Assembly (NCBI GenBank): GCA_964017185.1
Contig: OZ024875.1
Coordinates: forward strand, 24,375,456 to 24,439,455
Direction: 5' to 3'
DNA: 64,000 bases
DNA from: Rugalucina vietnamica
Lineage: Eukaryota; Mollusca; Bivalvia; Lucinida; Lucinidae
The translations under genes were made by a program, and so were the position numbers. Positions 12,430 through 59,372 of this stretch are shown one piece after another. The notes below the pieces were generated by a model that had not been told where the DNA came from, did no database searches, and worked only from the letters and a program-made list of their open reading frames with translations. Position 1 is the stretch's first letter. Each line of letters starts with the position of its first letter.

Positions 12430-13130
12430 CGTCAAAGTCTCATCATGATCGAACATCATCACCATCATCATCATCATCATCATGATCGATCATCATGATC
12501 AATCATCATCATCGATCATCATCATCGTCGATCATGATGATGACTATCATGATCGATCATCATCATAATGATCGATCATCATCGATGATCGATAAACATG
12601 ATCGATCAGCATTATCATCATCGATCATCACCATGACGATCGATCATCATCATCATGATCGATCATCAACATGGTCGATCATCAGCATGATCGATCATCA
12701 TCATGATCGATCATCATCATCATCGACCATCACCATGATGGTCGATCATCACCATCATGATCGATCATCACCATCATTTTTGATCATCATCATCGATCAT
12801 GATCGATCATCATTATGATCGATCATCATCATGATCGATCATTATCATCGATCATCATCATCATGATCGATCATCATCATGATCAATCGATCATCATCGT
12901 CATCATCGTGATCGATCATCTCGATCGATCATACGATCATCATTATGATCGATCGATCATCATCATCATGATGATCGACCAGTATCATTATGATCGATCG
13001 ATCATCATCATCATGATCGATCATCATAACATCTTCGAACATCATCATGATCAATTATCATCATCATGATCGACCATCGTGATTCATAATCATGATCGAT
13101 CATCATGATGATAATCATGATCGATCATCA
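12430..13130. repeat. GATCATCATCGAT satellite-like array, 0.7 kb
   Basis: A dense array of ATGATCGATCATC and CATCATCATCGATC words, built almost entirely from GATC, ATCGAT and CATCAT. Being near self-complementary, it can pair with itself over much of its length. The His-Asp-Arg-Ser reading frames through it are translations of the repeat. Confidence 0.95.
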
Positions 13131-13320: not shown

Positions 13321-13895
13321 TTAGAAAATGAATCTTAACCGATAATAAATTTCTGAGTTCTCAGAATATCTTCGCTGATCCCAAAGGACCAAATAGAAAA
13401 TATAACCTGCACTATGGATTATGTACGGGGAGACTTTTTAGGGCCGCCACACGGCACAACACCAGCTGCAGTAATAGCAAATAAAAATCATAGAGTCTGA
13501 CTGACGCCCGACCCACCGGCGTGCAATTAAAGAAGGCAGCATAGTTATCAACCATGATTGGGTTAAAAACTAAGCATGCAGACTGTCGCATAACATTCAA
13601 GTTATAACCTATACGTCTGTAACGTGTTATGATTTTTCTGAACTGAAAAGAAAAATCATTACTTCCTATAAGTTTCTTAAATTTGTAAACTAAGTCACCA
13701 TAAAAGTCAGGTTCCGAAAGGCCCTCACTTAAAAGCGTCTTTAATCCAACATTATATTTGGAAATCAATTCATAGTGTCTACGATAAAATTTAGAAAAGG
13801 TTTTTCGAAGTTTATGATACCGATAGCCCTGTTGCAGAAGTTTTGCCGTTAAACATTTATTTCGAGCGTTGAAGTCTGTAACATGATTGCAGACT

Positions 13896-14960
13896 CTAGC
13901 AATTAAAGAAGGCAGCATAGTTATCAACCATGATTGGGTTAAAAACTAAGCATGCAGACTGTCCCATAACATTCAAGTTATAACCTATACGTCTGTAACG
14001 TGTTATGATTTTTCTGAACTGAAAAGAAAAATCATTACTTCCTATAAGTTTCTTAAATTTGTAAACTAAGTCACCATAAAATTCAGGTTCCGAAAGGCCC
14101 TCACTTAAAAGCGTCTTTAACCCAACATTATATTTGGAAATCAATTCATAGTGTCTACGATAAAATTTAGAAAAGGTTTTTCGAAGTTTATGATACCGAT
14201 AGCCCTGTTGCAGAAGTTTTGCCGTTAAACATTTATTTCGAGCGTTGAAGTCTGTAACATGATTGCAGACTCTAGCAAACCTAATAAGTTGCGAAATGTA
14301 AACACCATAAGAAGCACGACGAGGAACGTCACCATCCAAAAAAGGAAAATTTACTATATCAAAATCAAAGTCATCGCGCTTATCATAAATTTTAGAAGAA
14401 ACAAATCCATTTGCAACAGAAAGATGTAGATCTAAAAAGGGGGCTTCGGTATCTGAGATATTGGCTTTGTTCAACTGAAGTTCAGGTGGATAAATTTGAT
14501 TGACCATATCTTCAAAATAAGGGTTGTCAATGTCCAAAAGGTCATCGAGGTACCTAGATGTGGAATTAAAACCCTCGATAACATCAGCTTGATTATCATG
14601 GTTAAGAGAATCCATGAAATCTCTTTCGTAGCAGTATAAAAATAAATCAGCTACGAGAGGTGCGCAATTTGTACCCATCGGAATTCCAACAATTTGTCTG
14701 TATAACTTGGTCCCAAATCTAATATAAATATTATCAAGGAGATAGGACAAGGCGTCGCACACATTCTGACATGACCAAAGTGTATACTGACTTTGGTCAG
14801 AGGAAGTGAAAAAAGCCTTTCTGTCATTACATGCCAAATAAAGTGAACCATAGATTTTTAATGCCCTTTTGAAGGTCCACTCTATCAAATCCAGAAGTTT
14901 TTCTTTTATTAGATTATGTGGTAATGTTGTATACAGAGTAGAAAAATCTTACGTGGACAA
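13896..14960 (-). pseudogene. N1 reverse transcriptase core and thumb
   Basis: A stop (TAA) replaces the Tyr of the DFSTLYTTLP block (motif A) at about 14950. Downstream the frame is intact: VGIPMGTNCAPLVADLF (fingers/palm) and RYLDDLLDIDNP with the YLDD catalytic motif, then FVSSKIYDKRDDFDFD and YGVYISQLIRFARVC. The RT of Penelope-like elements is a sister of telomerase RT. The C-terminal part is followed head-to-tail by a second copy of itself (13412-13927 region), a truncated tandem copy ending near 13484. Confidence 0.85.
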
Positions 14961-14986
14961 GCTTGTCGCACGGAACCCTCTACACT

Positions 14987-16104
14987 TCAATTTACTGAGC
15001 ACCTCACCAGAATTTTTATTGACCAAAACCAGTTTTTATTTGAAGTTTCATACACTGTCTCACAGTAAATTATAACATGAGATTTGATAGCAGTAAGACA
15101 GGAAGTTAATAATTTAGAAAGTTCAGTGGTAGTACAAGAGCTAGAATTTGCAATAAATCTAGCTTTGTATGGTCTTTTGTGAAGCTTAGGTAACCAATAC
15201 ATCGTAGAAAGTTTGTCTTGGCCTTCATTGACACAAACAGAAAACTTAACAGGTAGATCGTTTAAGTGGGCATTAACTACAGACACTTCATCAGTATCTG
15301 TCTCCAGATAAGCCCAGGTACCATCAAGCTTCTGTTTTAAGGTGTTAACGTAGTGAAGCCTACAAACGACAACAACATTGTTTGCGGCTTTGTCTGCCGG
15401 AACCAAGACATACTTTCTATGAAATTCTTGGATACCCTGCCTAAATGACGATTTGGGTTTAGGAGGTAAAAGATTAGTATTTTGTGAATAAAACTTAATA
15501 CGTTTATCCACGACAGTGAAGATACTTCTTTTCCATTCTTTAAGAGATTATCCTCAACACCCTCTCGTTTACACCATCGACTACCGAAATCATTTAATGC
15601 AGATGCAATCTCCTCTCTACATTTGTCGAAATTAATGTAGGAAGGGAATCTATATTTCGGACCTTTAGAAACAATTTTACGAATTCTAGAATCCGAAATT
15701 ATTTTTAAATTTCCAGTAACTATATGTCCGACTGGTTGATAAACATATTTTGAATCTTAACAATCTCAAGACTTGGGAGTATTAGCATGGATATCAAGAT
15801 CAGAAACAAGTTTATTGAAATTAAAAATAGTATTTCTGATCGGTTTGTTATATTTGTAACAAATAATAGGAGGTTCTGAATTTTGGAAGTAGGTAGGTAT
15901 AGAATGTATCACTGATTTATCTTGGAATATGCTTGGTAAATCAATAAAGTCAATTCCTTTATTAATGAAAGGAATTTTTATAAAACTTCTAATGTGATTA
16001 GCTTCGGAATCGATAAATGGACGAAGAGCATGCTGAGTATAAGATCTTGTTAACAGTGCAGCGTCATACATTTGATGATTTCTATCGTAAAATCTATTAG
16101 CCAA
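14987..16104 (-). pseudogene. N1 linker with U-x-C motif and RT N-terminal blocks
   Basis: The frame opens inside the overlap with the endonuclease segment and runs NRFYDRNHQMYDA to NTPKS, then TGA (15768-15766), Asp, Cys, and a TAA at 15759-15757. The TGA replaces the first Cys of the CxC motif known from Naiads. After that, VGHIVTGNLKIISDSR and, following a frameshift near 15540, FYSQNTNLLPPKPKSS, YVLVPADKAANNVVVV and TMYWLPKLHKRPY are typical Penelope-family RT N-terminal blocks. A one-base deletion near 15040 shifts the frame at the Trp-Phe-Trp block. Confidence 0.8.
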
Positions 16105-16815
16105 GTGTCTGTGTCCAAGGAACGTAATGCAGCTATAGGTAGAGAACTAAGATAAGACAACATTGGATGTCGACCGTGAATCCTTAGTTTAACAGCTAAA
16201 TCATTAAGGGAAATGTTTAATTTCAATGCAGCGCACCGTTTACGTTTGTCATTACCCTTTTTCCGTATACCATGAGATCTCGATTTACGTTTACGGGACT
16301 CTGAAAGTGTCAGTACATCAAAATCGGGCATTTTGAAAATGTTGCCTTCATGGTAAATGTTGTCGTTAAATCCCAGTGGAAAGGGTGTTTGCAGTAATTT
16401 TATCCATTTAAGTTCAGTTTCAAATCGTTTGATGTTTTTGAATCTAACTGAAGAATTTTCATCATATGAGATTTTCTCCACTGGTTGAACTATAACATCA
16501 TTGGGAGAATGACCAGTGCGCTTAAAATGCTGGTACAGAAAGGTATCATTATTTTTGGGCTTTCTGATTCTACGATAGTGCTCACCAAATCGTTTTTGCA
16601 AAGTTCGACAAGTTTGTCCAACATATTGCATCCTACAATTATTTGTATTTCAAGTAAGAACATATACAAGATCCATTGATTTTCAGTCTAAATCAGAACC
16701 ATTAACCACTGAAAATGTCCTACCATTCAGTGATAGTAGTCTTAGAGCATAAATGATTGCAACAGTTGCACTTCTTGGCATTGCACTTAGAAATACAAGG
16801 GTACATTCCAGGTCT
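16050..16815 (-). pseudogene. N1 N-terminal region: Cys-rich leader and GIY-YIG endonuclease
   Basis: The leader reads CISKCNAKKCNCCNHLC. After a one-base frameshift near 16725 comes NGRTFSVVNGSDLD, TGA at 16685-16683, KSMDLVYVLT, TGA at 16652-16650, then a frame reading QYVGQTCRTLQKRF with downstream His residues (GEHYRR, YQHFKRTGH). That fits the CCHH GIY-YIG nuclease of Penelope-like elements, which nicks target DNA. A basic stretch (ESRKRKSRSHGIRKKGNDKR) follows and a frameshift near 16104 ends the frame. The two TGA codons sit where the family has Cys before LVY and Cys before the YVG motif. Confidence 0.85.
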
Positions 16816-16817
16816 CT

Positions 16818-17898
16818 TAAGTTCATTTCAGTAATACTTCAGACACCTGTTAAGTTAAGAATCCTGTTAAGTTCATTTCAATAATACTTCAGACACGTCT
16901 GTAATTCTGGAAGCCCTCGATAGCATGAAGAGTGGGTTAGAATGTAAAATAGACAATATTGAAAAGAAAACTAATGATCGCTTGGGAAAACTACAAGACG
17001 AGATGAATAGTATCAGGGAAGATTTCAATCTTAGGTTAGACGGACTAGCAATACAGGTTGAATCGCGGATTCTAAAAGATGTACAAAATGATACAAAGGA
17101 AAAGTTGACAAATTTAGAAAAGGAGATGAAGAGAGATATGGACAAAATGAAAGATAGTCTTGACAAAACGGAAGCAGGTGTGAAAAAACTATCACAAACT
17201 GAATTACAAACAGTACACAAGAAATTGGGTGATGAAATTGATAGGCTGGCAGAGCGAGTAGCCTCCCTTGAAAATAAAAAGTCGTAGTTTCATTTAAATG
17301 ACGAACAGGAGGGAACAAATGAACGGAAGCGGAGGATTGTGATACGAAATTTAAAAGAACGAGAAAATGAAAACATCAAGGACAGAGTCAACAACATAAT
17401 CGATTGCCTAAAGCTAAACAACATCTCCGTTGAAGCAGCAGAAAGAAAGGTCAATAATTACAATTCGAAACCTGGAGTTGTAATTGCTACATTTTACAGC
17501 AGTGACGACAAAGAGAGAGTCATGAAAGTAAAAAAGAATCTAAAGGACGGGACCAGGTTTACTTAGAAAACGACGTTCCGGTATACCAACGGAAAATGAA
17601 GAGCAATTTGCGTACAATCAATAATACTTTTGGTAAAGATAAACTTAAGCTCTAAGGGTCGAGGATCATACGAGACTTAAGCTACAAGGGTCGAGGATCA
17701 TACGAGCTGGTGTTAATGATTCAGAACAATATACAAATAACCAAAAAAATGAGCGTAGGCAGCAAAATATATCATATCACAATGAGCGTTATGACGCGAA
17801 ATCTGTAGCAAGACGTCACCGATCCAGAAACGCCCACCACCAGGAGCACGACATATCACTAATCACGTGACACAACCCGTCACGAAAATTACTATTAC
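16818..17898 (+). pseudogene. LINE A ORF1 fragment (first copy)
   Basis: Nearly identical to the ORF1 of the long LINE A copy at 18892-23235. It begins with two partial tandem copies of a TTAAGTTCATTTCA block (16821 and 16868). The frame 16925-17287 reads a coiled coil (MKSGLECKIDNIEKK to RVASLENKKS). After a stop and frame change, 17339-17566 gives the RNA-binding domain (RRIVIRNLKERENEN). The basic tail (SVARRHRSRNAHHQEHD) follows to about 17898, where the sequence changes into a hAT-like transposase fragment. It is dead, with stops and a truncated 3' end. Confidence 0.85.
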
Positions 17899-18891: not shown

Positions 18892-20198
18892 ATGGAGTCG
18901 GATACCGGAGTGAGAGAAAACACTGAACAAATTCAGAGAACTGTCCAGGCTCAAGACAGCACACAAAGCCAATCCACGGAATGGCAAACGAACACCATTG
19001 AACCAACAATTAATGTCAATAAAAGTGTACTGAAATTAAAAGAGAACACAGAAGCTGAAAATTATGTCAAAAGTATTATGGCAAAGAATGTGGTTAAACC
19101 AAGTAATAGTAGTAATACTGACATGTCATCACAGTTACTACAGACGCTTGTCACACGAGCCAAAACTGGGAGAAAAAGACACCAAACAAAAATAGATCAA
19201 ACATGAAAAAAGCCAAAAATAGTGTTGATTTAGATAGTGAAAGCATCAGTAAGGAATCACCACAAAGTTTTGGGCATGAAACAAGTGCAGACAAAAAATG
19301 TGAAACTGAAAAGCCAAGGAATGAAAGAGTGACGGTAAAAGTGAAAAGGAGTATAATGCCATAAGACAGACTTAAATTTACTAAAAGTAAGGACAAAAAG
19401 ATGCACAATAAAAACGAAAGTGACGATAAACAGAAACAAAAAGCTAAAAACTCGAAGAAAGATAAAGCAATGCGACATTCCAAAGACATTAAAAACAAGG
19501 AATCCTGTTAAGTTCATTTCAATAATACTTCAGACACGTCTGTAATTCTGGAAGCCCTCGACAGCATGAAGAGTGGGTTAGAATGTAAAATAGACAATAT
19601 TGAAAAGAAAACTAATGATCACTTGGGAAAACTACAAGACGAGATGAATAGTATCAGGGAAGATTTCAATCTTAGGTTAGACGGACTAGCAAAAAAGGTT
19701 GAATCGCGGGTTCTAAAAGATGTACAAAATGATACAAAGGAAAAGTTGACAAATTTAGAAAAGGAGATAAAGAGAGATATGAACAAAATGAAAGATAGTC
19801 TTGAAAAAACGGAAGCAGGTGTCAAAAAACTATCACAAACTGAATCACATACAGTACACAAGAAATTGGGTGATGAAATTGATAGGCTGGCAGAGCGAGT
19901 AGCCTCCCTTGAAAATAAAAAGTCGTAGTTTCGTTTAAATGACGAACAGGAGGGAACAGATGAACGGAAGCGGAGGATTGTGATACGGAATTTAAAAGAA
20001 CAAGAAAATGAAAACATCAAGGACAGAGTCAACAACATAATCGATTACCTAAAGCTAAACAACATCTCCGTTGAAGCAGCAGAAAGAAAGGTCAATAATT
20101 ACAATTCGAAACCTGGAGTTGTAATTGCTACATTTTACAGCAGTGACGACAAAGAGAGAATCATAAAAGTAAAAAAGAATCTAAAGGACGGGACCAGG
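18892..20198 (+). pseudogene. LINE A ORF1, N-terminal and coiled-coil part
   Basis: It starts at ATG 18892 (MESDTGVRENTEQ) with a Ser/Thr/Gln-rich N-terminus, changes frame near 19200 to a Lys-rich segment (KKAKNSVDLDSES), and has two stops (about 19361 and 19508). The coiled coil (19566-19928) repeats heptads with Leu and Lys/Glu. The RNA-recognition domain begins at 19965 (RRIVIRNLKEQENEN) and is cut at 20199 by Naiad N2. ORF1 proteins package LINE RNA. The start was chosen because the frame opens there directly after the pyrimidine-rich leader. Confidence 0.75.
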
Positions 20199-22022
20199 TG
20201 TATGAAACTTCAAATAAAAATTGGTTTTGGTCAATTAAAAATTCTGGTGAGGTGCTCAGTAAATTGAAGTGTAGAGGGTTCCGTGCGACAAGCTTGTCCA
20301 CATATGATTTTTCTACTCTGTATACAACATTACCACATAATCTAATAAAAGAAAAACTTCTGGATTTGATAGAGTGGACCTTCAAAAGGGCATTAAAAAA
20401 CTATGGTTCACTTTATTTGGCATGTAATGACAGAAAGGCTTTTTTCACTTCCTCTGACCAAAGTCGGTATACACTTTGGTCATGTCAGAATGTATGCGAT
20501 GCCTTATCCTACCTCCTTGATAATATTTATATTAGATTTGGGACCAAGTTATACAGACAAATTGTTGGAATTCCGATGGGTACAAATTGCGCACCTCTCG
20601 TAGCTGATTTATTTTTATACTGCTACGAAAGAGATTTCATGGATTCTCTTAACCATGATAATCAAGCTGATGTTATCGAGGCTTTTAATTCCACATCTAG
20701 GTACCTCGATGACCTTTTGAACATTGACAACCCTTATTTTGAAGGTATGGTCAATCAAATTTATCCACCTGAACTTCAGTTGAACAAAGCCAATATCACA
20801 GATACTGAAGCCCCCCCTTTTTAGATCTACATCTTTCTGTTGCAAATGGATTTGTTTCTTCTAAAATTTATGATAAGCGCGATGACTTTGATTTTGATAT
20901 AGTAAATTTTCCTTTTTTGGATGGTGACGTTCCTCGTCGTGCTTCTTATGGTGTATACATTTCGCAACTTATTAGGTTTGCTAGAGTCTGCAATCATGTT
21001 ACAGACTTCAACGCTCGAAATAAATGTTTAACGGCAAAACTTCTCCAACAGGGCTATCGGTATCATAAACTTCGAAAAACATTTTCTAAATTTTATCGTA
21101 GACACTATGAATTGATTTCCAAATATAATGTTGGGTTAAAGACTCTTTTAAGTGAGGGCCTTTCGGAACCTGAATTTTATGGTGACTTGGTTTACAAATT
21201 TAAGAAACTTAAAGGAATTAATGATTTTTCTTTTCAGTTCAGAAAAATCATAACACGTTACAGACGTATAGGTTATAACTTAAATGTTATGCGACAGTCT
21301 GCATGCTTAGTTTTTAACCCAATCATGGTTGATAACTATGCTGCCTTCTTTAATTGCACGCCGGTGGGTCGGGCGTCAGACTCTATGATGGCCCCGACAT
21401 AAAGCTATTCATTTTAGTTGGTTGGGGCCGGAGCTTCTTGTCTGTTGCTTGGCCCACCGGGGTTCAACTGGTGTTTTTCTTTTGCTCCGGAGTTAGTAGG
21501 TTATTCGGCGCCCAGGGATCTCCATCGTCGGGCAGCTTACTCAGTCTGTGAGTCCTGGTTTTTGATTCATCAGGATGTTTATCATGATTTATTTGTTTGT
21601 TCTTGATGATTCATTGACTAGTTAGAGATTCACCACGAGGACCAAATAACTAACTAAATGTTATGAACCACTGCAGAAGCTGAGGGTGAGGTTATGGCCA
21701 TGTAAAACCGGTTTAAGCCCGCCAGTAACTTTGTGTTACTGATCGTTCCAAGTCGATACTTCTGTGGTGGTTCTTTTTGTTTTATGTCTTGGTGTATAAA
21801 ATTTTTTTGTGCTGTTGGCGCCTTATGTATGTTTTCATATTTTTAGTTAAGTTAAGGTAACTGAGTGGCCACCTATTGGGAAAATAGCTGCTCATTCGGC
21901 TTACGATATGTTTCATGGTATAAGTACCTGATTGTTGGTTTGGTTTTTTCCCACCTCGGTTTTTGGAGTGGGAATCTTTTTCTGATTGCGCCTTTTCCTG
22001 ATCTTTGCCTACTTGTACCTTT
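20199..22022 (+). mobile_element. Naiad element N2, 5'-truncated
   Basis: It starts in the RT (YETSNKNWFWSIKNSG) and runs through motif A (TYDFSTLYTTLPH), VGIPMGTNCAPLVAD and RYLDDLLNID. A run of seven C at about 20812 shifts the frame by one base; RT then continues to about 21402 (KIYDKRDDFDFD, YGVYISQLIRFARVC). A 0.6-kb 3' untranslated part follows, ending TGCCTACTTGTACCTTTT. It contains a conserved hairpin whose arms start GAACCAC and end GTGGTTC (21664-21778). It is inserted in LINE A ORF1 between AGGT and TTACTTAG with little or no target duplication. It is better preserved than N1 in the RT. Confidence 0.9.
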
Positions 22023-23815: not shown

Positions 23816-24767
23816 AAAGGTACAAGTAGGCAAAGATCAGGAAAAGGCGCAATCAGAAAAAGATTCCCACTCCAAAAACCGAGGTGGGAAAAAACCAAAC
23901 TAACAATCCGGTACTTATACCATGAAAACATATCGTAAGCCGAATGAGCAGCTATTTTCCTAATAGGTGGCCACTCAGTTACCTAAACTTAACTAAAACA
24001 TGAAAACATACATAAGGCGCCAACAGCACAAAAATTTAACACCAAGACATAAAACAAAAAGAACCACCACAGAAGTATCGCCTTGGAACGATCAGTAACA
24101 CAAAGTTACTGGCGGGCTTAAAACCGGTTTTACATGGCCATAACCTCACCCTCAACTTCTGCAGTTCTTCGGTCCTCGTGGTGAATCACTAACTAGTCAA
24201 TGAATCATCAAGAACAAACAAACAAATAAATCATGATAAGCATCCTGATGAATCAAAAACCAGGACTCACAGATTGAGTAAGCTGCCCGACTATGGAGAT
24301 CCCTGGGCGCCGAATAACCTACTAACTCCGGAGCAAAAGAAAAACACCACTTGAACCCCGGTGGGCCAAGCAACAGATAAGAAGCTCCGGTCCCAACCAA
24401 CTAAAATGAATAGCTTTAAGTCGGGGCCATCATAGGGTCTGACGCCCGACCCACCGGCGTGCAATTAAAGAAGGCAGCATAGTTATCAACCACGATTGGG
24501 TTAAAAACTAAGCATGCAGACTGTCGCATAACATTCAAGTTATATCCCATACGTCTGTAACGTGTTATGATTTTTCTGAATTGAAAAGAAAAATCATTAC
24601 TTCCTATAAGTTTCTTAAATTTGTAAACCAAGTCACCATAAAATTCAGGTTGCGAAAGGCCCTCACCTAAAAGCGTCTTTAACCCAACATTATATTTGGA
24701 AATCATAGTGTCTACGATAAAATTAAGAAAAGTTTTTTCGGAGTTTATGGTACCTATAGCCCTGTTT
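23816..24767 (-). mobile_element. Naiad element N3, 5'-truncated
   Basis: On the minus strand it carries only the RT C-terminal region (24706-24416: ISKYNVGLKTLLGEG, FKKLIGSNDFSFQFRK) and the 3' untranslated part, ending at the AAAGGTACAAGTAGGCA complement near 23816. It is inserted in LINE A with a likely 3-bp TAG duplication (before 23816 and at 24769-24771). It is highly similar to N1 and N2 in both parts. Confidence 0.9.
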
Positions 24768-43885: not shown

Positions 43886-45670
43886 TTAGTTTAACAAACG
43901 GGTCATAGTACTGATACAACGTACTTTACACTGAAGACATGTACAAGTACATGTAATTGTATGCACAAGTAAGAAAATTTGGCTGTTTGTTTCGAGGGAG
44001 AGCGAACTATCACCAAATAGGAGTACATCGAGAGTAACATGACACAGCTGTGAGACGGAATTAAGCATTTCAAGTCGTTGAAGGCGGTAAAAACGACACT
44101 GTAAGAGAAAATGTTCCGCGTTTTCAATATTGCCGCATCTGCAGAAGGGTGAGTCATTTAAATTCCTAATAAAAATGTCATAATTTAGAGAACTACACTT
44201 TGTTCTTAAACGAGTGTGCAAAATTTGTGTGTGTCGATCTCCGGTGTAATAGTACTTCGGTGTAATAGAGGTGTGTTGATTAAGCCGATTTTTGAAAGAG
44301 GTGACAGTTGCCGAGTTTCTAAGTTCTTCAGGGAGAGAGTACCATCCTCTGATAGCTGACGGTAGAAAAGACGAATAGTACTGAACTGAACTAGCATTTG
44401 TTGTCCTAATATCATTGGAGTTTCTGAGATTATAGTTAGATGTTTCATTGACAGTTGGAGGTATGAGTGACGTTAAGTAAGATGGAGTTAAGTTATGTAC
44501 CATTTTGTAAAAGAGAGTAAGCTTTTGTTTATTTCTTCTAACTTCCAAAGTTTCCCAACCAATTTCACTGTTTAGATTTTCAATTGATACCAATTTAGTA
44601 GTTCCTATTGCGATTCGCGCTGCTTCTTTCTGGATATTTTCGAGGTCTTCTTTTTCATAATCTGCACAGTTATCCCAAATTTCGTTACAATATTCTAAAA
44701 TAGGCCGAATGAAAGAAGTATAAATTATTTCTTGAGATTTTCTATCTAATTGAAACTTAAGTTTACGCATTACCTTAATTCTATTCCAGGCTTTTTCCTT
44801 AATGTAATTAATATGTGTGTGCCAGGTTCCGTCATTGCTAAGGTAGATACCGAGGTGTTTATGACTTTCAACTTCTTGAATTTGCTGATTTAGCATGTAG
44901 AGCGGAGGATGTAATGGTTGTATTACTTTTCTACTTATTAGAAGAGATTCTGTTTTTGCAGGATTGAACTTAACAAGCCAAGTTTTTGCCCATTTTGAAA
45001 TTTTTTCTAGGTCAGAGTTTAAAGTTTGGTCAGCAGTATCAGGGTTATCTACAACAAGAAATAAACTAGTGTCATTGGCAAAAAGTCTTATGCTTGATCC
45101 AATATCATTTACAATGTCATTTATATACAGTAAGAATAAGAGCGGACCAAGAATAGAGCCTTGTGGGACTCCTGCATGTATATAGTTCCAGTCAGATTCT
45201 GTGCCTGGGAGAATAACTTTTTGTCTCCTTTCAGAAAGATAGCTACTGAACCAAGACAGAATATTGCCAGATACCCCCGCAGCCTTTAACTTACAAAGAA
45301 GACCTTTGTGCCAGACGCGGTCAAATGCCTTGCTGACATCACAGAAGACGACACGTACTTCTTTTCGAGCATCTAAAGCTTTACAGAAAGTGTTATAGAG
45401 GAAAGTGAGTTGGTTAGTAGTTGAATCTCCAGGTATGAAACCGGACTGAAGAGGAGAAAGTATATCGTTATCTCGAAAATGATTGTAAAGATGTTTGAAG
45501 ACTACTCGTTCCGGGACCTTTTCTAAACAGCTGAGAAGAGAGATAGGACGATAGTTAGAAACAGAGGCTGCACTTCCACCTTTGGGGATAGGACAGACTA
45601 GCGCATCTTTCCAAATGTCTGGAAAAATACCAACACTTAAAGAGTGATTAAGAAGAGAACATACTGGGAA
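43886..45670 (-). pseudogene. LINE D reverse transcriptase and C-terminal domain
   Basis: The frame is open from the stop at 45671 to 43886. Blocks: DALVCPIPKGG, NYRPISLLS, SPLQSGFIPGDST, VVFCDVSKAFDRVWH (motif A), HAGVPQGSILGPLLF (motif B), RLFANDTSLFLVV (motif C) and WLVKFNPAKTE. The family norm at motif C is F-A-D-D; here the first catalytic Asp is Asn, which should abolish polymerisation. The C-terminal part has a Cys/His cluster CRCGNIENAEHFLLQC. A CR1/Jockey-like clade is likely. Confidence 0.85.
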
Positions 45671-46804
45671 TTACAATTCATGTGCTAATTCTCTGAGAGT
45701 ACGATTACTAATATCGTCCGAAACGACGGCTTTGCCAAGTGGAAGGTTCTTTAAAACGGATTCTACTTCAGTGGGTGTAATGACTAGATTTGAGAGCAAA
45801 TTATCAACATTACAGTCAATATGGGGTACTTGAGCATTTGTGTCGTCTAAAAGAGTTTGGTCTCGAAAGAAATTGTTCAGCAGATTTGCTTTATCAGTGT
45901 CGTCATTGTAAACTCGTCCATCTTTTTCAAGAGTCGGAACAGATGTTTTGGACGATGGTGATATGAAGGTCTTGAGTGTAGACCACCAGTCCTTAGAAGA
46001 TAATGGCTTCGTCTTTAGCTTATTTGAGAGTTGATCAAGATATTGTTGTTTTGACAACCGTATTTGTGTTATAACCTTATTTCTTAATTTTTTTTAAATT
46101 TATTCCACAACCTAGGAGTGTCATTATGCTTAACCTTTTGGTATGCCTGTTTTCGTTTACGAATAAGTTTGCGAATAGCTGTAGTTATCCATGGTGGGTC
46201 TGAGGGCCTTATCCTGACAGTTTTATTTGGAATACATTCTTCTGTTAGATCGTTTAATTTGTTAGTAATGTTACAAGCATGGGTGTTGACGTCATCGTCG
46301 TATAGTGAGTCCCAGTCTGTATTGGCTACTTTGGTTCTAAAAGAGTCATAGTCTCCTCTATCGTAACTCCAGATTCGACGGGAATAGGATTTTCTTGAAG
46401 CTTTTGTATATTTAAAGACACCATAAATAGGACAGTGGTAACGAACGTTCTGATTTAGAAATGGTTCTGCTACACCGCTGTAAATGAGATTACTCTTGTC
46501 GTTTGATAAGAGAAGAAGAGTTTTCAGTAAAATGAGTTGGTTCTGTAACAGTTTGATATAAAGAAAATTGTTCACAAAGTTCAGATACCTTACGAGATGT
46601 TTGTCTACTGAACACATCTAGATTAAAGTCACCTCTGATGATGATGTTGTTAATTTGTGTGTCCATTGCTAGTGATATAGAATCTTCAATGCTAGAGAGG
46701 CATGCTGCGTCAGATTCCGGCGGGCGATAGAAAAGGCCAAATAAAACACGTGTGTGATTTAACTGGATCTCAATCCATATGCATTCTACGTTGCGCGGTT
46801 CCAA
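45671..46804 (-). pseudogene. LINE D endonuclease end and linker
   Basis: 46804-46490 reads VLFGLFYRPPESDA and IIIRGDFNLDVFS, the C-terminal half of an APE-type endonuclease with GDFN. After a frameshift, 46617-46084 reads IWSYDRGDYDSFRTK and SDPPWITTAIRKLIRKRK. After a second frameshift in an A/T run near 46080, 46057-45671 reads LSSKDWWSTLKTFISPSS and GKAVVSDDISNRTLREL, then TAA. Confidence 0.8.
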
Positions 46805-55074: not shown

Positions 55075-56250
55075 TAGAGGATATTTGCTTGTTTGAGGTG
55101 AATACCAAATATATTTCATCGAGTGAGTTGAAAATATCAGAATTTTCACGAGTGCGCAGCACGAGTGAAAATTTTGATGTTTTCAACTCACGAGATGAAA
55201 TATATTTGGTATTCACCGAAAAAAAGCAAATTTTCTTTTTATTTTATACAATACATGGGCATTTTCCTATTCACAAAGCAGGCGGTGAAAATGCGAAAAC
55301 CAAAAATTTTTGAAAACACAAATAATTTTGGTACCACATTGTTCCTTACGTTCTAACTAAGAAAATGAATACCCACACTTTATGTTTTCGTTCATAAATA
55401 ACGGAGTTATAGGCGTTTGAATTTGTGAAGTGAGACACATTTAATGACGTCAAGTAAATGGAAACGTCAGAAGTAATCCAAAAAATCTGACGCCATTACA
55501 GTGAAGATATTAAGAGATTATCATATGGCAATTTTCATATCATACCCCGTATCAACCTGAGACTTCCGTATCAGCCCGAGACTCCCATATCAGCCTGAGG
55601 GCCGAAGGCCCGAGGGCTGATATGGGAGTCGAGGGCTGATACGGAAGTCGAGGGTTGATACGGGGTATGATATGAAAATTGCCATATCATGATCTCTTTA
55701 TCATATATTTTTATTGAAAAAAAAGTGTTTGATACAGTTCAATGCACAAAATGTTTCCCAACATGATTTCAAGTGGAAAAAAGAAAGAATGAAAAAAAAA
55801 ATTCTGGTCACAAATTTTATTCAATAACATTTAACCATTAATACAGAAAATTCAAATACAAAAATTTATAAATTGAGAACAATTTACAACGTACTATTGA
55901 ATAGAACAGAGCGCTCCGAATGTGGGGGTCACGTGAGATGTGATATGAGGTTTGGGGTGTGATATGGGGGTGTGATATGAGTCCATATCTCCCTAGGGAG
56001 ATATGGATTTTGCCAAATTTTGAACTGATACAGCTTTCGAGATATGGTGTCCCGATACGTGCATAGGACTTGCGCCTGTATCGCATATGTAAAAAGAACG
56101 TATTTTACAGTAAATATATGATAAAGGCTGATATCAGTCACTAGTGACTTTTGATATCAGTGAGATTTGATATCAGTGAAATTTCATATCAATGAAAATA
56201 TCAATTTTATCAAGTTTTGATATACATTGGTTTTTACTGTAAAGTATAAA
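55075..56250 (-). repeat. Fold-back repeat family FB1, copy 3, itself interrupted
   Basis: Opposite orientation to copies 1 and 2. The hairpin lies at 55085-55230. The body continues to GAAGATAT at about 55507, then a hairpin element is inserted, and FB1 resumes at AGGCTGATATCAGTCACTAG (about 56119) to end near 56250. Confidence 0.85.
55508..56118. mobile_element. Hairpin element nested inside FB1 copy 3
   Basis: Nearly perfect arms of about 90 bp (55512-55603 and 55607-55697) surround a 3-nt centre in GGGCCGAAGGCCC. Each arm carries three related subunits of the type GACTTCCGTATCAGCCC. The inserted DNA extends further to about 56118. The insertion is defined by comparison with FB1 copies 1 and 2, which are continuous at this point. 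Confidence 0.8.
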
Positions 56251-58683: not shown

Positions 58684-59372
58684 TCTGCGACAGCCTGCAT
58701 GCTTAGTTTTTAACCCAGTCATGGTTGATAATATGCTGCCTTCTTTAATTGCACGCCGGTGGGTCGGGCGTCAGGCTCTATGATGGCACCGACATAAAGC
58801 TATTCATTGGTTGGGGCTTGACGTTTGCTTGGCCAACCGGGGTTCAACTGGTGTTTTTCTTTTGCCCCGGAGTTAGTAAGTTATTTGGCGCCCAGGGATC
58901 TCCATCGTCGGGCAGCTTCTCAGTCTGTGAGTCCTCGTTTTTGATTCATCATTGTATTTATCTTGATTTATTTATCAAGCTTGAGATTCACAACGAGGAC
59001 CGAACAACTAACTTAAATGTTGTGAACCACTGCAGAAGCGGAGGGTGAGGTTAGGTACCTGTAAAATCGATTTAAGCCCGCCAGTAATTTTATATTACTG
59101 ATCGTTCCAAGGCGATACTTCTGTGGTGGTTCGTATTGTTTTATGTCTTGGCGTTTAAAAGTTTTTGTGCTGTTGGCGCCTTATGTATGTTATCATATTT
59201 TTAGTTAAGTGGCCACCTATTGGGAAAATAGCTGCTCATTCGGATTACGATATGTTTTCATAGTATAAGCACCTGATTGTTAATTTGATTTTTCCCCACC
59301 TTGGGTATTTGGAATGGGGACCTTTTTTCTGATTGCGCATTTTCCTGATCGTTGCCTACTTGTACCTTTTTT
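58684..59372 (+). mobile_element. Naiad 3'-end fragment N4
   Basis: From GACAGCCTGCATGCTTAG, the end of the RT region, through ACGCCGGTGGGTCGGGCGTC and the full 3' untranslated part to TGCCTACTTGTACC. It keeps the conserved 3' hairpin with GAACCACTGCAGAAG and CTTCTGTGGTGGTTC arms. It is inserted in a repeat related to 22605-22730. Confidence 0.9.

Follow-up and report, generated by a model that had tools for sequence, protein, structure and literature searches.

A dead Naiad copy with in-frame TGA at conserved cysteine codons, very probably from a mollusc family that encodes a selenoprotein

Introduction

Naiads are Penelope-like elements, and those of clams and spiders reportedly encode selenoproteins with several selenocysteines (Sec). 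A search of an article library for work on Naiads or Penelope-like elements and selenium found no paper. Two other systems offer points of comparison. A review places cellular SECIS elements in the 3′ UTR and names fowlpox as a case with one inside its coding sequence (PMC8310308). The bivalve selenoprotein P mRNA has 132 UGA codons read as Sec (PMC10235951).

Here, we describe a Naiad copy, N1, in a 64-kb stretch of DNA (the window, by which we mean the whole stretch analysed). An earlier sequence-only reading of the window had noticed three in-frame TGA codons at Cys positions of this copy and proposed a Sec-coded mobile element. Homologue searches and sister copies in the same window indicate that N1, itself dead, very probably comes from a mollusc Naiad family that codes for a selenoprotein. 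If such an element needs the host selenium machinery, its transposition would be tied to Sec decoding, and the thousands of related database sequences would serve as natural experiments on the exchange of Cys and Sec at four sites.

Results

N1 and the parts that can be recognized in it lie at the following window positions.

About 16817-13487, minus strand: N1, a decayed Naiad copy with an N-terminal GIY-YIG domain, a CxC linker and a reverse transcriptase (RT)
16491..16670, minus strand: GIY-YIG domain of N1 (PF01541, 24.7 bits, cut-off 22.6)
15759-15757, minus strand: in-frame TAA, a decay lesion at a non-Cys position
13899..15547, minus strand: RT part, split over two frames and interrupted by a TAA in frame at 14951-14949
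13523..13902, minus strand: 380 bases of the 3′ coding end that are duplicated in tandem (second copy)

The N1 protein can be traced in pieces: a Cys-rich start, the GIY-YIG domain (residues 9-68 of the piece starting at 16694), a long linker, the CxC site and the RT part. N1 is a dead copy, untranslatable as it stands, because it carries two TAA codons (the second, at 14951-14949, likewise on a non-Cys position) and four frameshifts (near 16731, 16104, 15547 and 15015), and because its 3′ end is cut within the SECIS region. This terminus, at 13487, keeps the AUGA and nothing beyond.

In its domain order, CxC motif and telomerase-like RT, N1 fits the description of Naiads. The PF01541 domain is N-terminal and the RT pieces lie downstream, and between endonuclease and RT there is a CxC linker if the TGA of N1 is taken as Cys or Sec. 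The telomerase-like RT was seen on a predicted model of the relative P0124 (mean pLDDT 80), whose 14 best PDB matches by E-value are all telomerases, at TM-scores by query of 0.39-0.47; this model is the fold with 42 rows, an earlier fold with 14 rows being poor (pLDDT 45.7) and unused. Pfam RVT_1 scored below its cut-off in relatives and was absent from the N1 pieces, and a sequence search against solved structures gave chance-level matches only. Two Naiad RT proteins, P0156 and P0159 (82% and 76% identical), are named under Candidatus Thiodiazotropha MAGs. Candidatus Thiodiazotropha are symbionts of lucinid clams, so these two sequences probably stem from host DNA in the symbiont assemblies and are consistent with a clam source.

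Several other repeats occur in the window. A 703-base segment is present twice, 97% identical and inverted (16859-17561 and 19500-20202), flanking N1 and a sister copy, N2; N2 starts at the end of this segment and N1 lies about 40 bases away from it. Downstream of the 3′ end of N1 is a GATCATGATGAT-like repeat array (12440-13130); microsatellites are said to be favoured by Naiads. Farther along, a LINE-like element with open frames carrying RT motifs, recognized by eye, occupies 43886-46617 on the minus strand, and a near-perfect inverted repeat at 55535-55675, with a mir-2008 score on both strands far under the cut-off, is perhaps a small inverted-repeat element.

Four Cys positions of N1, here called S1 to S4, are central to what follows.

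16685-16683, minus strand: S1, TGA, at a conserved Cys ahead of the GIY-YIG core
16652-16650, minus strand: S2, TGA, at a conserved Cys within the GIY-YIG part
15768-15766, minus strand: S3, TGA, where the CxC linker has its first Cys
15362..15364, minus strand: S4, TGT (Cys) in N1, a stop or Trp in sister lineages

All three TGA codons are in frame, as the sequence-only reading had it. S1 and S2 are 11 codons apart in a single frame, which is also that of the GIY-YIG domain, and S3 is in the frame used after the frameshift near 16104. The assignment of these codons to Cys positions was likewise upheld by 16 distant relatives, defined as proteins with at most 51% identity that were new in the profile search (P0241 and, in part, P0245-P0279). 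Cys is found at S1 and S2 in all ten of those that cover both sites. At the linker, where N1 reads TGA-D-C, both Cys are present in 16 of 16, and Cys is likewise found at S4 in all 16, a few of which are near-copies of each other. N1 thus has in-frame UGA where homologues have Cys, as expected of a selenoprotein gene. There are five in-frame stops in N1: the three TGA codons all fall on Cys positions, and neither of the two TAA codons does.

How surprising this is depends on the Cys codons counted. For N1 alone, with 924 codons counted, three of three TGA would land on Cys codons of any kind with a chance of 2.9e-3 to 8.6e-3. The corresponding figure for S1-S4 is 5.1e-6 to 1.5e-5, which flatters because these four sites were named after the relatives had been seen. 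Nine Cys are conserved within the counted stretch (Cys in at least 13 of the 16 distant relatives, or in all of those covering the site), and for these a hand calculation with the same weights gives 1.1e-4 to 3.1e-4. The selenoprotein case rests on the relatives, not on the chance estimate.

Three sister copies in the window retain all or part of a SECIS.

20198..21402, plus strand: N2, a sister copy, 5′-truncated and frameshifted near 20815, with its open reading frame (ORF) ending at TAA 21400-21402
21377..21444, plus strand: SECIS of N2 (SECIS_1, 37.4 bits, gathering cut-off 35)
24374..24441, minus strand: weaker SECIS of N3 (31.6 bits, under the Rfam gathering score)
58777..58799, plus strand: 5′ arm of a SECIS in N5, with a damaged 3′ arm

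The 3′ end of the sister copies had been pointed out as the place to look for a SECIS, and the search was successful in N2 and, below the cut-off, in N3. Indeed, SECIS_1 in N2 is the only Rfam match at gathering score in the window (E 0.00069, or 2.2e-6 when a 201-base stretch is searched). A permissive search (E up to 5) yielded 38 matches in the window, two of them SECIS, namely those of N2 and N3, which are at the same place in the two copies. The AUGA, A-rich apical motif and GA, downstream of UGA, are present in N2 and more weakly in N3. The N2 hairpin is more stable than shuffled sequences, with a z of -3.47 (1 of 200 as good), and the N3 hairpin is no more stable than many of them, with a z of -1.04 (32 of 200 as good). 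The N5 stretch folds otherwise, the 3′ arm of its SECIS being broken. The 5′-arm pattern, which was drawn from these same copies, occurs three times with at most three mismatches versus 0.02 expected. No SECIS is left in N1, and no copy within the window has TGA sites and a SECIS together.

To place the N1 codons in their family, we searched protein databases with the 5′ half (385 matches), with the RT half (3101 proteins) and with a profile (674). From each search the 120 best matches were taken, giving a pool of 282 different proteins; pooled counts are taken from pairwise alignments, which replaced a MAFFT alignment of the 282 partial proteins that fell apart. Among the best 120 of the 385 5′-half matches, 51 proteins end exactly one codon before S3 and 32 end one residue before S4, and the next peak of protein ends (10 of 120) is the end of the alignment query itself. 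By MAFFT, S3 in the same 120 is an end in 52 (51 at the exact residue), Trp in 17 and Cys in 31. One of these proteins, P0001 (97% identical, 286 residues), ends at S3 and represents a cluster of 760 sequences; further clusters ending there are P0008 (1412 members), P0016 (539), P0039 (673), P0048 (539) and P0082 (418). The clusters behind 50 of the 51 proteins with an end scored at S3 total 4483 members, whose individual ends may differ.

The pooled counts (n = 282) show the same states at all four sites. S3 is an end in 51 proteins, Trp in 23, Cys in 49, another residue in 7 and not covered in 152. S4 is an end in 34, Trp in 23, Cys in 64 and another residue in 4; 15 proteins start just after it and 142 do not cover it. 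The two GIY-YIG sites are covered less often: S1 is Trp in 3 and Cys in 10 (269 not covered), and S2 is Trp in 3 and Cys in 11, with 2 proteins starting just after it (266 not covered). The count of Trp at S1 was lowered from 4 to 3 when P0078 was discarded, a fusion with another RT in which the Trp is a misalignment. Among the best 120 of the 3101 RT-half matches, S4 is Trp in six, and other Cys positions of the query are Trp at most once each. Among the relatives that continue with Trp at S1, S2, S3 or S4 are P0003, P0010, P0041, P0095, P0116 and P0146; of these, P0116 (42% identical) is a distant exception with Trp at all four sites.

The relatives are known from their protein sequence, and a search for their nucleotide sequence in viral contigs, genome contigs and plasmids found no match. 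Their stop at these sites is most simply taken as UGA, to judge from the Trp at the same positions in other rows. Stop rows and Trp rows are adjacent in the trees described below, which fits UGA translated under codes 11 and 4, respectively. That TGA is fixed at these codons, as the sequence-only reading would have it, held in part: the proteins that end before S3 and those with Trp there agree with it, but 31 of the best 120 carry Cys, so that Sec at S3 would be bound to a clade and not universal. TGA at these codons looks like a feature of the family and not like decay.

A rival reading is ordinary decay, in which nonsense mutation of three Cys codons gave the TGA of a dead copy. N1 is clearly decayed, TGC or TGT becomes TGA in one step, and the any-Cys chance given above is small, not tiny. 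However, a stop at the very codon of S3 ends 51 of the best 120 5′-half relatives, including clusters of hundreds of sequences, and a SECIS is present in the sister copies. Ordinary decay was dropped as the whole explanation after the homologue searches, and we regard it as very unlikely. We find it highly improbable, too, that the stops are real ends, i.e., that the broken frames give separate GIY-YIG and RT proteins without Sec. In favour of this, the stretches bounded by stops are long, conserved and annotated by gene callers as proteins of their own. Against it, distant relatives have a single ORF of about 1000 residues, the stops coincide with Cys positions, other rows have Trp at the same sites, and there is a SECIS. 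A decoding of UGA as Cys, Trp or some other residue, through reassignment or leaky readthrough, is extremely unlikely, since the database proteins with Trp at these sites, which could speak for it, are closely related to stop rows and fit machine translation with code table 4, since it would leave the SECIS unexplained, and since we know of no animal nuclear code that reads UGA as sense.

The selenoprotein reading also draws on the end of the ORF. In N2, the AUGA (21385-21388) lies within the codons for S-M-M, and the stop codon TAA (21400-21402) overlaps the apical AAA (21401-21403). An end pattern caught 84 proteins among the 282 pooled. In 69 of the 84, the tail opens with M, continues with M, T or I and closes with three further residues (40 MMAPT, 16 MMVPT), and these 69 all keep one distance between M and the stop, as a fixed length of the helix from AUGA to the A motif would require. 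Seven end otherwise: P0109, P0266 and P0267 are not true tails, P0186 and P0234 have the M-M tail and run past the stop, and two would break the AUGA, P0210 (V-M, which also runs on) and P0226 (M-V). The remaining 8 are short; one of them, P0271, belongs to the distant relatives and matched by chance. None of the 15 other distant relatives has a DSMMAPT-like tail, although some (e.g., P0245 and P0279) do not end at the native C-terminus. A simple reading of the fixed tail is selection on the RNA.

As a separate observation, the tails of P0161, P0184 and P0242 stop early, after GRxSD, and their ORF may thus end ahead of the SECIS.

To follow the exchange of Cys and Sec, we made quick trees without bootstrap, from which N1 itself is absent and in which its near relatives P0124 and P0001 are included. 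The RT tree holds 72 of the 102 proteins that have a readable S4, the rest being too short, and the linker tree 95 of the 123 proteins that have a readable S3. In the RT tree, the P0124 clade with Cys at S4 (31 rows, SH-aLRT 94) is nested among lineages with Trp or a stop at S4, with the Cys-type rows outside; this nesting makes a return from Sec to Cys at S4 likely, and the TGT at S4 of N1 is apparently such a return. In addition, P0175 is the sole Cys row inside a clade of stops and Trp. In the linker tree, 52 rows with a stop or Trp at S3 group with P0001 in one clade (SH-aLRT 100). Beside this clade stand 30 rows that combine Cys at S3 with a stop at S4; of these, 29 share a weak clade (SH-aLRT 81) with the Trp row P0069. 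The branch of P0116 is long, and its placement is unsure.

P0035, P0037, P0052 and their kin, which have Cys at S3 but stop at S4, are a lineage of their own.

Discussion

If N1 descends from selenoprotein-encoding Naiads, working copies would recruit the host Sec machinery (tRNA-Sec, EFSec and SECIS-binding protein) by means of the SECIS hairpin at the end of the ORF. UGA would then be read as Sec at three sites, S1 and S2 of the GIY-YIG part and S3 of the CxC linker, and sister lineages would have a fourth Sec site at S4, ahead of the RT core. Intact copies would most likely produce a single protein of about 985 residues with S1-S3 as Sec. With AUGA in the last codons and the UAA stop in the apical A motif, the SECIS overlaps the end of the ORF, and such an overlap would explain the fixed C-terminal tail.

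On balance, we lean toward a scheme in which the SECIS lies in the ORF end with the stop in its apical A motif, selection at the RNA level keeps the final residues constant, and Sec sites are gained and lost singly, S4 having gone back to Cys in the N1 lineage. The overlap of SECIS and stop raises the question of how Sec insertion is served by a hairpin in which ribosomes terminate. Once a SECIS is present, a Cys-to-Sec change may be nearly free, because bivalve hosts read 132 UGA codons as Sec in one mRNA, that of selenoprotein P (PMC10235951).

The N1 family resembles the reported clam and spider Naiads in its N-terminal GIY-YIG domain, CxC linker, telomerase-like RT and several UGA codons at Cys positions. 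Clam Naiad selenoproteins have already been reported, and the point of this well-supported member is the overlap of SECIS and stop. Elements of the Cys type with an N-terminal GIY-YIG domain (the 16 distant rows) share the domain order, and wherever they cover S1-S4 they carry Cys, but unlike the N1 family they have no stop or Trp at these sites and no DSMMAPT-like tail. Bivalve selenoprotein P is alike in having several UGA per mRNA and a host able to decode them, and differs in being a cellular gene with many more Sec. In the fowlpox selenoprotein mRNA, the SECIS also reaches into coding sequence (PMC8310308), whereas that of the N1 family lies across the stop codon with which the ORF closes.
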